The notes beneath the pieces were generated by a model that saw nothing but the letters and a program-made list of their open reading frames with translations, did no database searches and was not told where the DNA came from. DNA of 64,000 nt. Source: Lysobacterales bacterium (GTDB lineage: Bacteria > Pseudomonadota > Gammaproteobacteria > Xanthomonadales > SZUA-36). Below are positions 40,379-61,941 of this stretch, one piece after another (position 1 is the stretch's first letter; each line of letters begins with the position of its first letter). Where the stretch lies: NCBI GenBank assembly GCA_013001885.1, contig JABDLD010000090.1, positions 1-64,000 of the forward strand, read 5' to 3'. The position numbers were made by a program, and so were the translations under genes.

Positions 40379-40428
40379 GCCCCGGCCGGTTGCTCATGGC
40401 ATTTTGACCTGAGCCGGCCGGGGCTTTT
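40379..40428 (+). terminator. Intrinsic terminator after fadE
   Basis: GCCCCGGCCGG (40379-40389) pairs perfectly with CCGGCCGGGGC (40414-40424), followed by TTTTGCTTT. The loop of 24 bases is long but the 11-pair GC stem is strong. An extended -10 motif (TGCTATACT, 40366-40374) lies just before it, so it could instead lie in the btuB leader. Confidence 0.75.
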
Positions 40429-40429
40429 G

Positions 40430-40660
40430 CTTTGGGTGCCCGGAATAACAGGTTAGAGGCTGAGAAGCCGCACACCTGCCGGGTGAAACGGGAAGCCGGT
40501 TAAAATCCGGCACTGCCCCCGCAACGGTAAGCGAATCAGCCGGCTTTAGCCGGGCTGTGACCTGCGGCCTTATGCCACTGCACTCTGTGCGGGAAGGCGC
40601 CACAGGGGTTCATTTCGAGAGATGAATCATTCGCGAGTCCGGAGACCGGCCCAATGCACC
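40430..40660 (+). promoter_or_regulatory. Cobalamin riboswitch upstream of btuB
   Basis: The 399-base interval from fadE to btuB holds a cobalamin riboswitch. Diagnostic conserved blocks occur in order: GGGTGAAACGGGAAGCCGG and AAAATCCGGCACTGCCCCCG, then CAACGGTAAGC (together about 40484-40532), GCGGGAAGGCGCC around 40590-40602, and the B12 box AGTCCGGAGACCGGCCC at 40636-40652. A possible expression-platform hairpin follows (40673-40682 with 40708-40721). It should shut off btuB when adenosylcobalamin is abundant, as for E. coli btuB. The outer boundaries are approximate. Confidence 0.93.
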
Positions 40661-57608: not shown

Positions 57609-59306
57609 TTAACTTTTCTTCTGCGCCAATTCCTTTTCAATCCTGGCCCAGGAGTCGCGTAGCGTGACGATGCGGTTGAGTACCGGCCGGCCCGGCCGGG
57701 AGTCAACGTTGTCATGGCAGAAATAACCGGTGCGCTCGAACTGGTAAAAATCACCGGCAACGCCCGCAGCCACAGCGGGTTCCACGATCACGTCCTCGAT
57801 TACATCCAGGGAATGCGGGTTGAGAAATTCACGGTAGTCTTGCTCTTTGTCGCCCAGCGGGTTGGGGGTCGTGAACAAGCGGTCGCAAAGCCGAACCTCT
57901 ACGGGTACGCCGTGAACGGCGGAGACCCAGTGAATCGTGCCCTTGACCTTGCGTGAAGCTCCGGGCATTCCCGAACGTGTGTCAGGGTCGAACTTGCAGT
58001 GAAGTTCCACGACTTCACCCTGGTCGTCCTTGATGACCTCGTCGCATTGCACGATGAAAGCATTGCGCAAACGAACTTCGCCGCCGGGTTTCAGGCGGAA
58101 GAACTTTCGGGGGGGATCTTCCATGAAGTCATCCCGTTCAATCCAGATTTCCCGGGTTAACGCGACCTCGCGAGTCCCCATGTCGTCATTCTGGGGGTGC
58201 ACAGGTGCATCCAGCCACACAGTTTCGCCCTCGGGAAAGTTGGTAAGGACGACTTTGAGCGGGTTGAGAACCGCCATGGTGCGCGGCGCCCTGACGTTCA
58301 GGTCGTTACGGACCGCATTTTCCAACACGCCCATCGAGATGATGCTGTCGGCCTTGGATATGCCCATCTCGGTCCAGAACGCGCGGATGGCTTCCGGCGT
58401 AAATCCGCGGCGACGCAGCCCCGCCAATGTGGGCATGCGGGGGTCATCCCAGCCGCTGACCCGTTTTTCCTCGACCAGTTCGCGCAGGCGTCGTTTACTC
58501 ATCACCGTGTAATCGAGATTACCCCTGGAAAATTCGATCTGCCGCGGATAGCTCGGTGCAGGAATATTTTCCAGGAACCAGTCATACAGCGGACGGTGGT
58601 CCTCGAATTCAAGCGTGCAAAGGGAATGCGTGATGCCTTCAATGGCGTCCGAGATTCCATGCGCCCAGTCGTACATGGGGTAAATGTGCCATTCATCGCC
58701 GGTACGGTGATGCGAAGCATTGCGTATTCGGTAAACGACCGGGTCGCGCATGTTGATATTCGGAGACGCCATATCGATCTTCGCCCTCAACGCCAGCGTC
58801 CCGTCCTCGAACTCACCGGCTTTCATTCGCTTGAACAGGTCAAGATTTTCGTCAACCGGGCGGTCTCGATACGGGCTGTTCCTTCCCGGCTCTGTCAGTG
58901 TGCCCCGGTGAGCGCGAATTTCTTCCGCGCTCAATTCTTCAACGTATGCCTTGCCGGTTTTTATCAGGTGGAGCGCGAACTCGTAAAGTTGCTGGAAATA
59001 ATCGGAGGCGTGGAACAACCCGTCCCACTCGAAACCCAGCCAGCGAACGTCCTCCATGATCGCGAGCATGAAATCCTCGTTTTCTTTCAGTGGATTGGTG
59101 TCGTCAAAACGCAGATTGGTGCGGCCGCCGAACTCCGCCGCCACACCAAAATTCAGGCAAATGGATTTTGCGTGGCCGATGTGCAGGTGGCCGTTGGGTT
59201 CCGGCGGAAACCGCGTGACGATTTCATCATGTTTACCCGTTTCCAGGTCCTTGATGATGATGTTCCTGATGAAATTGGTGGGCGTGGAAGCGCTGTCACT
59301 GCTCAT
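57609..59306 (-). CDS. glnS: Glutaminyl-tRNA synthetase
   Basis: A 565-residue class I synthetase charging tRNA-Gln. The HIGH-type motif is [13 protein letters not shown], the KMSKS-type loop is VMSKRRL, and the core contains [14 protein letters not shown] and [19 protein letters not shown]. The C-terminal anticodon-binding barrels are complete. Having GlnRS fits gamma- and betaproteobacteria. It ends a short region of its own and is preceded (upstream, 59307-59972) by the segment with the small RNA candidate. Confidence 0.97.
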
Positions 59307-59404
59307 TTTGATGTCCCTGCGGTTTATGGCCTTCGAAATTCGTGAATTCTACCGTAAATAGCTTTGATTTCGGGATACTTTCCTGCATTTCAGCACGATA
59401 AAGA

Positions 59405-59648
59405 TCATTTTCGGGCTGACAGTCGAAGAATCGCCATGACCACGATGAAACCTGCAATCATGAGTGTGACAGACGCCAGCTCTTCGCCGTTGAGTGACCC
59501 GGGCCAGCCCGGTCAATGCTTCAGTGCCAAAAATGACGATGACAAAAACGTTGAATTCGCCATATGCGTTGATGATGCAGGCGTACTTGCCGAGGATCAG
59601 CAAAGCGAATGAGCCGGAGATCCCGGACACGATATCTGCGCTGCCCAT
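59405..59648 (-). pseudogene. Small membrane protein gene broken by a one-base frameshift
   Basis: From the ATG at 59648, which has GGGGAGGG four bases upstream, the frame reads MGSADIVSGISGSFALLILG and on through IINAYGEFNVFVIVIFGTEA, two hydrophobic stretches. After about GTEALTGLAR it degenerates. One base over, the frame reads NGEELASVTLMIAGFIVVMA and ends ILRLSARK with a stop. Joined, these would give an 80-residue protein with two or three helices. It may be a decayed gene, a sequencing error, or a programmed shift near GGCCCGGG; the family is not recognised. Confidence 0.35.
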
Positions 59649-59786
59649 GCAACCCTCCCCGCACAAAGGACTGGCCGCCCGCCTGCCTGGAGGGAGGGAA
59701 AAAGCGCTTGGCCATTGTGTTCTCACCCGGCTTCCATTTTTGCATTCAGAGTCGACCCAAAATGACCAATAACATCGCAAAAAAAA

Positions 59787-59806
59787 GCCCCGGAAAGATC
59801 CGGGGC
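59787..59806 (-). terminator. Intrinsic terminator on the minus strand
   Basis: GCCCCGGA and TCCGGGGC form a perfect eight-pair stem with a four-base loop. On the minus strand it is followed by a run of eight T. It would end transcripts from mnmG or from the structured RNA candidate just before it. Confidence 0.85.
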
Positions 59807-59867
59807 TGGAAAGTGCATCGCGTAGGCATAGAAGTGTGGGGACTGCCTGTTTGGTAATGCGATGCAC
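59787..59867 (-). ncRNA. Putative structured small RNA ending at an intrinsic terminator
   Basis: Reading on the minus strand from 59867: GTGCATCGC pairs perfectly with GCGATGCAC (59859-59867 with 59813-59821); inside, AGGCA and TGCCT form a smaller stem with a pyrimidine-rich loop (GUCCCCACACUUCUA). Six bases later the terminator follows. This stem, inner hairpin and terminator in about 80 bases is the layout of a bacterial small RNA. It may also be the 3' end of the mnmG transcript. It matches no RNA family I recognise. Promoter evidence is weak. Confidence 0.5.
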
Positions 59868-59972
59868 TAGGCACAGTCAACTTACACATTAAGAATAACG
59901 ATTACATGTTAAGAAACTGTGAATTGATCGTTTTGAAAGCGTGATAATTGGAAAAAATATTCAAAATCCGGA

Positions 59973-61856
59973 CTAGGCCACCCGTTGACGTGATTTTTTC
60001 AAATGCACGAGCAACAGTGAGATGGCCGCGGGCGTCATGCCCGGTATCCTCGAAGCCTGGCCCAGGGTGTCGGGCCTGACCCTTTCGAGCTTTTCCCGAA
60101 CTTCGGAGGAAAGGCCGTGAACGCTACCGTAATCGAACGTGCTTTCAATCGCCGTGTGCTCGTGCCGCAGGCGCCGCTCGATGTCGTCCTTCTGCCGCTC
60201 GAGATAGCCCGCGTACCGCACCTGGATTTCTACCTGTTGAGCTACCTGCTGATCGGATACTCCCGGCCCAATCCCGTCCACGAAGGTCAGCCTTGAATAG
60301 TCCATTTCAGGCCGTTTCAGCAAGTCCAGCGCCCTGCTTTCTTTGCTTACGGCAATTCCGAATGCCGCTTCCAGCGAGCGAGCGGCTTCATTTCCGGGCG
60401 TAACCCAGATGTCGTGCAACCTCTGCCGCTCAGATTCTATGGCGTCACGTTTACGGCAGAATGCGTCCCAACGGCTATCCGGCACCAGCGCCAACTCACG
60501 GCCTTTTTCGGTCAGGCGCAAGTCCGCATTGTCCTCTCTCAGCTGCAGGCGATATTCTGCCCGGCTGGTAAACATCCGGTAGGGCTCCAGCGTTCCCTGG
60601 GTCACCAGATCATCGATCATGACTCCCACGTAAGCTTCGTTGCGCGCCGGCACCCACACCGGCTCACCACGTGTCATGCGCGCCGCGTTGATCCCTGCGA
60701 CCAATCCCTGGGCCGCCGCCTCCTCGTACCCGGTCGTGCCGTTTATCTGGCCGGCAAAAAACAGGCCGGGCACGTGCTTCGTTTCCAGGTGGCCGTACAG
60801 TTCCCGCGGATCGAAAAAATCGTACTCGATAGCATAACCGGGACGGGTGATATGCGCATGTTCGAAACCGCAAATGGAATGAACAAAAGCTAGCTGAACA
60901 TCGAACGGCAAGCTGGTTGATATTCCGTTCGGGTACAACTCCCGGGTGTGCAGTCCCTCCGGCTCAACGAAGATCTGGTGCTTGTCCCGTTCCGCGAAGC
61001 GTACGACCTTGTCTTCGATCGACGGGCAATAACGCGGCCCGACACCTTCGATGATCCCGGTGTACATGGGCGAGCGATGCAGCTCAGCCCGGATAATATC
61101 GTGAGTGCGCTCCGACGTGTGCGTGATCCAACAGCAAACCTGCTCCGGATGGTCGCTGCCGTCTCCGATGAAAGAAAAAACCGGCGCGGGGTCATCCCCA
61201 GGCTGTTCCTGCATTGCGCCGAAATCGACGGTCTTGCCGTCAATGCGCGGTGGCGTGCCAGTTTTCAGGCGGGCTACTGAGAACGGCATCTCCCTCAAAC
61301 GGGCTGCGAGCGTATTGGAGGGAGGATCACCTGCCCGGCCCCCCTGAAACTGCTCTTCACCGATGTGAATCTTGCCGCCGAGAAACGTGCCGGTCGTCAG
61401 AACCACCACCGCCGAATGAAATTCAAGCCCGGTCGCTGTGCGGCATCCCGCAATCCGGCCATTCCTCATCAAGAGATCGTCAACCGGCGCCTGGAAAACC
61501 GCGAGGTTTTCCTGCTGTTCCACGTTCTGCCGGATAAACGCGCGATATAAATTCCGGTCGCACTGCGCACGCGTGGCGCGGACTGCCGGCCCCTTACTGG
61601 AATTCAGGGTGCGTAACTGGATTCCAGCCGCGTCAGCGGCGCGGGCCATAACGCCCCCCATCGCGTCAATTTCCCGGACCAGGTGCCCCTTGCCAATGCC
61701 TCCGACCGCCGGGTTACAGCTCATTTGGCCGACCGTTTCGATGCTGTGCGTCAGTAAAAGCGTCTCCGCCCCGCTCCTCGCCGAGGCGAGCGCGGCTTCG
61801 GTGCCGGCATGGCCGCCACCGATAACAATCACATCAAATATACGAGGGTACTGCAT
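59973..61856 (-). CDS. mnmG: tRNA uridine-5-carboxymethylaminomethyl modification enzyme MnmG
   Basis: A 627-residue FAD protein that, with MnmE, modifies U34 of certain tRNAs. The N-terminal [20 protein letters not shown], the [20 protein letters not shown] segment, [20 protein letters not shown] and [20 protein letters not shown] are diagnostic. The ATG at 61856 follows GAAG by five bases; a GTG six bases earlier is possible. Unlike many genomes, rsmG and the parAB genes are not its neighbours; downstream is the RNA/terminator region. Confidence 0.96.
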
Positions 61857-61941
61857 CGTCACTTCAACCGTGGTTATCCGGACCGCGTATTGTACTGAAA
61901 TTCAGGAAAAACCGGCAACTGGGCAGATTTCGCCCCCGGGC

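Follow-up and report, generated by a model that had tools for sequence, protein, structure and literature searches.

The window, i.e., the whole stretch of 64,000 nucleotides analyzed here, harbors between mnmG and glnS an intergenic RNA gene of about 107 nt, which runs from 59885 to 59779 on the minus strand, downstream of mnmG. A first-pass annotation had already placed a structured RNA candidate between these two genes, and Pfam matches in both minus-strand neighbors confirmed that placement. The features of the region, in the direction of transcription, are as follows:

59973..61862, minus strand: mnmG (gidA), the upstream neighbor (Pfam: PF01134, PF13932)
59908..59944, minus strand: promoter box array of four AC boxes at 11-bp steps (TCAC, AAC, TTCAC, TTAAC), a probable OmpR/ColR-type response-regulator site
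59892..59897, minus strand: −10-like hexamer TATTCT, 6 nt before the RNA 5′ end
59779..59885, minus strand: small RNA gene, with its 3′ end in the T tract and a presumed 5′ end at 59885
59870..59883, minus strand: leader AAGUUGACUGUGCC, whose first 13 nt are invariant in 30/30 aligned homologs
59859..59868, minus strand: outer stem 5′ arm, 10 nt (from fold and covariation)
59831..59847, minus strand: invariant segment GGCAGUCCCCACACUUC with an exposed CCCC (from the alignment; predicted unpaired)
59824..59848, minus strand: inner hairpin AGGCA...UGCCU (from the fold)
59812..59821, minus strand: outer stem 3′ arm (from fold and covariation)
59779..59807, minus strand: intrinsic terminator, a 9-pair GC stem followed by eight T at 59786-59779
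57609..59306, minus strand: glnS, the downstream neighbor (Pfam: PF00749, PF03950)

Read 5′ to 3′ on the minus strand, the RNA comprises GUAAGUUGACUGUGCCU, the 5′ arm of the 10-pair outer stem, a 10-nt linker, the inner hairpin, the 3′ arm of the outer stem, and the terminator. The outer stem is formed by GUGCAUCGC and GCGAUGCAC through nine pairs, or ten when one A–U pair is counted, and the inner hairpin has the form AGGCA-GUCCCCACACUUCUA-UGCCU with a pyrimidine-rich loop of 15 nt. Both elements had been described in the first-pass annotation and were recovered here, all three helices being present in the minimum-energy fold. The same annotation had located these features, together with a terminator bearing eight T, within 59787-59867. 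The features themselves, including the terminator stem and the run of T, proved correct, but the T tract occupies 59786-59779, just outside that interval, and the gene extends to 59779, with its start probably at 59885, some 18 bases earlier. Between the RNA and glnS (59349-59700, minus strand), open frames resemble a small membrane protein split over two frames.

The 93-nt fold that includes the terminator reached z = −7.5 (0/200 shuffles as good), and the 78 nt preceding the terminator alone reached z = −2.4 (3/200 shuffles as good); most of the folding excess is therefore attributable to the terminator. Judged from the aligned sequences, the conservation and covariation of the outer stem provide stronger evidence than the folding energy. 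In an alignment of 30 sequences, the outer stem was paired in 96.7% of its 300 cells, and its pairing in the true register was far above that in every slid register. Four of the ten pairs exhibited changes on both sides, with U–A replaced by C–G in 11 sequences and C–G replaced by U–A in 11. The 31 double-change cells, which count sequences and not independent events, exceeded the shuffle mean of 11 (0/500 as high); the number of double-change pairs (151/500 as high) and the number of pair types (496/500 as high) were not above shuffles. The covariation check on homologous intergenic regions that had been proposed for this locus is thereby answered by a conserved and covarying outer stem, and this result supports the earlier interpretation. 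For the inner hairpin, whose sequence is nearly constant, covariation speaks neither for nor against. The terminator was misaligned in the 30-sequence alignment, and its pair statistics there carry no meaning.

Two segments of the same alignment are fully conserved: all 17 columns of the loop GGCAGUCCCCACACUUC and all 13 columns of the leader AAGUUGACUGUGC were invariant. The CCCC of the loop is predicted to be unpaired with a mean probability of 0.996, exceeding 0.8 in 31/31 strong homologs, and the predicted mean unpaired probability is 0.91 for the 13-nt GUCCCCACACUUC and 0.72 for the leader. The distance from the leader to the core is 36 nt in 26 sequences, 35 in three, and 37 in one. A peptide-coding reading was considered and rejected, since such single-base length changes between conserved segments argue against it.

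The distribution of the RNA was examined by plain DNA similarity and by a covariance model (R1) built from 30 sequences. The DNA search over 101 related genomes returned matches at E up to 0.01 in 39, of which 31 belong to the window's own family (f1) and have long matches, and eight lie outside f1 and have short matches located at the terminator. When R1 was searched over all 39 genomes of f1, 34 had a match at E up to 0.01. In 31 the match was strong (E below 1e-20), in two (G030 and G032) the copy was diverged, and in G028 two weak matches were dismissed as unlike the RNA once aligned. The match in the window itself (59779-59885, minus strand; E 3.7e-25) is high by construction because R1 was trained on 30 sequences that include the window RNA. 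Likewise, 30 of the 31 strong genomes trained the model and their scores are non-independent; plain DNA similarity finds the same 31 independently. We also read the mnmG flank in six f1 genomes without a strong or diverged copy and located mnmG in four of them. Three genomes of genus g7 carry a diverged syntenic RNA after mnmG, and G013 carries none. With G018 and G028 (77% and 60% complete) excluded as unjudgeable, the syntenic RNA is present in 36 of the 37 judgeable f1 genomes. It lies immediately after mnmG and on the same strand in 32/33 flanks, the remaining flank being at a contig edge. In 30 of these 32 the RNA follows the end of the mnmG match at 72-118 nt; in the other two the spacing is 209 and 274 nt. 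The downstream gene is not constant, being glnS in 12/33 flanks.

Beyond this family, we inspected 27 genomes from other families of the order, picked from the match lists of the DNA and R1 searches to span eleven families. The RNA was absent from the 330 nt after mnmG in these genomes, where the best match to the promoter array was mismatched at 6/15 positions, and R1 did not find it over the entire mnmG flank loci of the same 27. An R1 search over 398 genomes of the order, run with stricter filters that lose weak matches, returned 77 genomes at E up to 0.1, and all strong matches fell in the window's family. Weak matches occurred in 43 genomes outside the family (best 2.4e-4), and the three of them that were aligned consisted of the terminator plus short leader- or stem-like stretches, with no loop core. 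R1 barely detects the RNAs of genus g7, and equally diverged relatives elsewhere could be missed. An exact scan for the 17-mer across genome contigs (257 Gb) gave 46 stretches, 29 of which were attributed to the family contigs found here; R1 found nothing in the remaining 17, which are no more than chance (about 30 expected in 257 Gb by simple arithmetic).

The window's own genome holds a second, truncated copy of the 3′ half of the RNA (G000:C63:1689-1792, minus strand), which is 84% identical over 70 nt, lacks the leader and the promoter boxes, and ends approximately 65 nt upstream of a gene encoding PAP2 and undecaprenyl-phosphate-translocase-like domains. A reading-frame fragment joined to this copy resembles what we take to be a transposase. 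An origin of the RNA from a mobile element or phage was rejected, as the second copy in the genome is a truncated half and the combined leader and core pattern had no exact match in viral contigs.

The region between mnmG and the RNA contains conserved elements of its own. In 17 of the 31 strong homologs, the G(U/C)AAG start is preceded, at 6-7 nt, by a hexamer TATGCT; the window has TATTCT. No good sigma-70 −35 hexamer was found at the usual spacing, and the −35 place is occupied by the box array instead. Across 33 promoter sequences (the 31 strong homologs plus G030 and G032), the ladder of four AC boxes with an exact 11-bp period was present in all 33; shuffled sets (n = 200) averaged 0.05 and never exceeded 1. 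From the end of the last box it is 22-24 nt to the RNA and, in sequences with a clear −10 hexamer, 10-11 nt to that hexamer. These conserved elements, the −10-like hexamer and the box array, constitute a predicted promoter belonging to the RNA itself. A strict array pattern allowing at most one mismatch produced 31 matches in 30 of the 39 family genomes, 30 of them at the promoter of this RNA, against five in the reversed control. This pattern misses nine of the 39 genomes, three of which (the window's own G000, G006, and G009) match the RNA strongly, and the array in the window departs from it at two positions. As far as the strict pattern can tell, the full array appears close to private to this RNA gene.

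The spacing and composition of these boxes point to response regulators of the OmpR/ColR type. The published ColR consensus of Pseudomonas putida is YYNASNNYTTTTTSAC, arranged in direct repeats (PMC2689224). Measured against this Pseudomonas consensus, the best 16-mer of the 33 sequences had one mismatch in 15, two in 12, three in five, and four in one; shuffled upstream regions reached one or fewer mismatches in 0.6% and two in 3.6%. The commonest departure was TTAAC replacing TTCAC or TTGAC, and in five of the 33 sequences the best match lay one box upstream of the usual register. In the four sites compared from Table 1 of the same source, the last two boxes are likewise 11 bp apart, and a third box stands 11 bp further up in PP3766 and PP0035 (AC in both) and in PP0737 (AG), and 10 bp further up in PP0900 (PMC2689224). 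The array described here differs from these P. putida promoters in that its last box is mostly TTAAC and its boxes number four. Excess zinc acts as a signal for ColS (PMC4074579).

A search of the window's own genome with the 16-bp ColR-type pattern gave five matches against ten in the reversed control. Three of these are inside coding sequences, and a fourth, on the opposite strand, falls between ftsZ and lpxC. The genome has 12 Trans_reg_C matches, and one OmpR-family regulator (locus L133) is paired with a histidine kinase and adjoins ferrochelatase; this pair may be ColR-like. A ColR-specific model was absent among the best 25 of 95 NCBIfam matches.

An Rfam search had been suggested for the candidate, and Rfam 15 contained no family that matched it at gathering score. 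In the whole window, a gathering score was reached solely by a cobalamin riboswitch at 40428-40658 on the plus strand (90.2 bits, gathering score 31.5). Among the best look-alikes of the RNA were RF02837 (anti-hemB, 20.8 bits) and RF02278 (betaproteobacterial toxic sRNA, 21.4 bits), both far below their gathering scores of 49.5 and 50, and the aligned parts were essentially the terminator. A literature search by title and abstract within a limited collection yielded no description of this RNA, nor did a query combining ColR with small RNA. From its sequence features, we consider it a new RNA family of a known kind, not in Rfam 15. The closest known parallel comes from the same bacterial order: sX13 of Xanthomonas has C-rich loops and, independently of Hfq, represses mRNAs that carry GGGG motifs close to the start codon (PMC3771888). 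Shared with sX13 are an exposed CCCC in a loop and a 5′ region that lacks structure. As described there, sX13 folds into three stem-loops, of which two carry CCCC and the third CCCCC, whereas the present RNA has one C-rich hairpin only, whose single CCCC loop is set inside a long outer stem. We think, by this analogy, that the RNA may work like sX13, and with one hairpin against three we do not claim membership of the sX13 family.

Together, the sequence evidence indicates that the mnmG–glnS stretch very probably encodes a small RNA that has a conserved promoter of its own, exposes a C-rich loop, and ends in a terminator. The locus combines what is looked for in a stand-alone sRNA, namely a conserved intergenic RNA, a covarying stem, and a terminator. 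Our preferred reading, to which we assign a probability of roughly 0.6, is that of an independently transcribed, trans-acting sRNA with sX13-like action, switched on by an OmpR/ColR-type response regulator; its expression, regulator, and targets are what we infer. A phosphorylated OmpR-family regulator, most likely of the ColR type, would bind the AC boxes and thereby switch on the RNA. The exposed C-rich loop UCCCCACACUUC, perhaps together with the 5′ leader, would then base-pair with G-rich stretches close to the start codons of its target mRNAs and block their translation, as with sX13. Such action is proposed because the combination of a C-rich loop presented on a stem, a 5′ region free of structure, and a terminator is reminiscent of the Xanthomonas RNA. 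The weak points of the sRNA reading are that two target searches produced no recurring target and that G030 and G032 lose the core; the label "C-rich" itself rests on one CCCC run.

The invariance of 13 plus 17 columns exceeds what a seed of 7-8 nt needs, and this surplus is an argument for a structured RNA in which a tertiary fold, or the binding of a protein or metabolite, would depend on the two invariant segments, so that it would serve as a titrator or sensor. A pairing of leader and loop across the outer stem can in fact be drawn (AAGU/ACUU, GACUG/CAGUC, and CC/GG), but the resulting duplex, at −8.7 kcal/mol, is no better than dinucleotide shuffles (mean −9.5 kcal/mol; 2955/5000 as good), on which ground the leader–loop pseudoknot was rejected, and since both sides are invariant the pairing is beyond the reach of covariation. 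We regard a tertiary or ligand-binding role as unlikely overall. A cis-acting riboswitch of the next gene can be set aside because the terminator directly follows and the downstream gene varies.

The first-pass annotation had left the choice between an independent small RNA and a processed 3′ end of the mnmG mRNA. In the latter reading, as developed here, the terminator would have the main role and the stem would act as a stability element. The constant position directly behind mnmG on the same strand, in nearly every flank, is what one would expect of such a 3′ end; the −10-like hexamer and the exact 11-bp box array between mnmG and the RNA nevertheless speak for separate transcription, termination does not need invariant unpaired segments, and the RNA is absent after 27/27 mnmG genes read from other families. 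The promoter array in particular favors the independent sRNA, and we consider mRNA processing improbable. Least probable is an ordinary terminator accompanied by an incidental stem with no function. The dominant share of the terminator in the folding excess fits that idea; the covariation of the outer stem and the invariant segments maintained over 30 aligned homologs speak against it.

For the preferred trans-acting sRNA, targets were sought in two ways. Complements of the 17-nt loop core with up to two mismatches occurred at 52 places in the 39 genomes, 31 of which were the opposite strand of the RNA gene itself, one the truncated C63 copy, and 20 others; 19 of these 20 were read (one in G025, contig C10, was left out), and no gene start recurred. 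The second search, for the exact complement of UCCCCACAC followed by 0-14 nt and ATG in 16 of the 39 genomes, gave 37 matches, five of them on the opposite strand of the RNA gene, against 29 in the reversed control. No protein recurred among these when readings of at least 40 aa were compared all against all; the match at G021:C108 was read only along with the places from the first search. In G001, G003, and G009, which represent two genera, GAAGAGTGGGGCCTGCC is found at nearly identical codons (105-108) of one flavoprotein-like coding sequence and is near-complementary to the RNA loop; this sharing probably reflects coding constraint.

The diverged forms show which parts of the locus tolerate replacement. 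In the three genomes of genus g7, the RNA keeps its place after mnmG, the terminator, and an outer stem of different sequence (3/3 folds), with an inner CAAGUG-type stem in 2/3 folds. R1 scores one of the three, and weakly (16.2 bits, E 0.08), so that the homology of the g7 RNAs rests on position, promoter boxes, and anatomy. Their exposed segment, CCC(C)A(C/U)ACCUCCCU, has a predicted mean unpaired probability of 0.82-0.98 and, by its sequence, would in effect be an anti-Shine-Dalgarno sequence. In the small genomes G030 and G032 of genus g11, the promoter boxes, the stem, and the terminator are kept and the GGCAGUCCCCACACUUC core is replaced by a UUUGCCCAA loop, which suggests either a change of target or decay in two small genomes.

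A bolder proposal, which we hold only tentatively and judge doubtful as a whole, is that the RNA family is private to one uncultured bacterial family and is the dedicated output of an OmpR/ColR-type two-component system acting through an array of four boxes in helical phase that hardly any other promoter has, with the invariant segments acting jointly, as a bipartite seed or a tertiary fold, and not as a simple antisense loop. The small-RNA family added by the present analysis is absent from Rfam 15 and comes from bacteria represented here solely by metagenome-assembled genomes; a regulator site open to testing accompanies it. Through the dedicated array and the invariant segments, direct tests can address both the input (the two-component system) and the output (the mRNAs). 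Should the proposed action be true, C-rich-loop sRNAs would recur in this order at unrelated positions. Elsewhere in the window's own genome, the remaining one of the five ColR-type matches, a perfect fit to the published consensus (PMC2689224), is located at G000:C2:26948-26963 on the plus strand, upstream of a TATAAC hexamer and of a gene for a fasciclin-domain protein.
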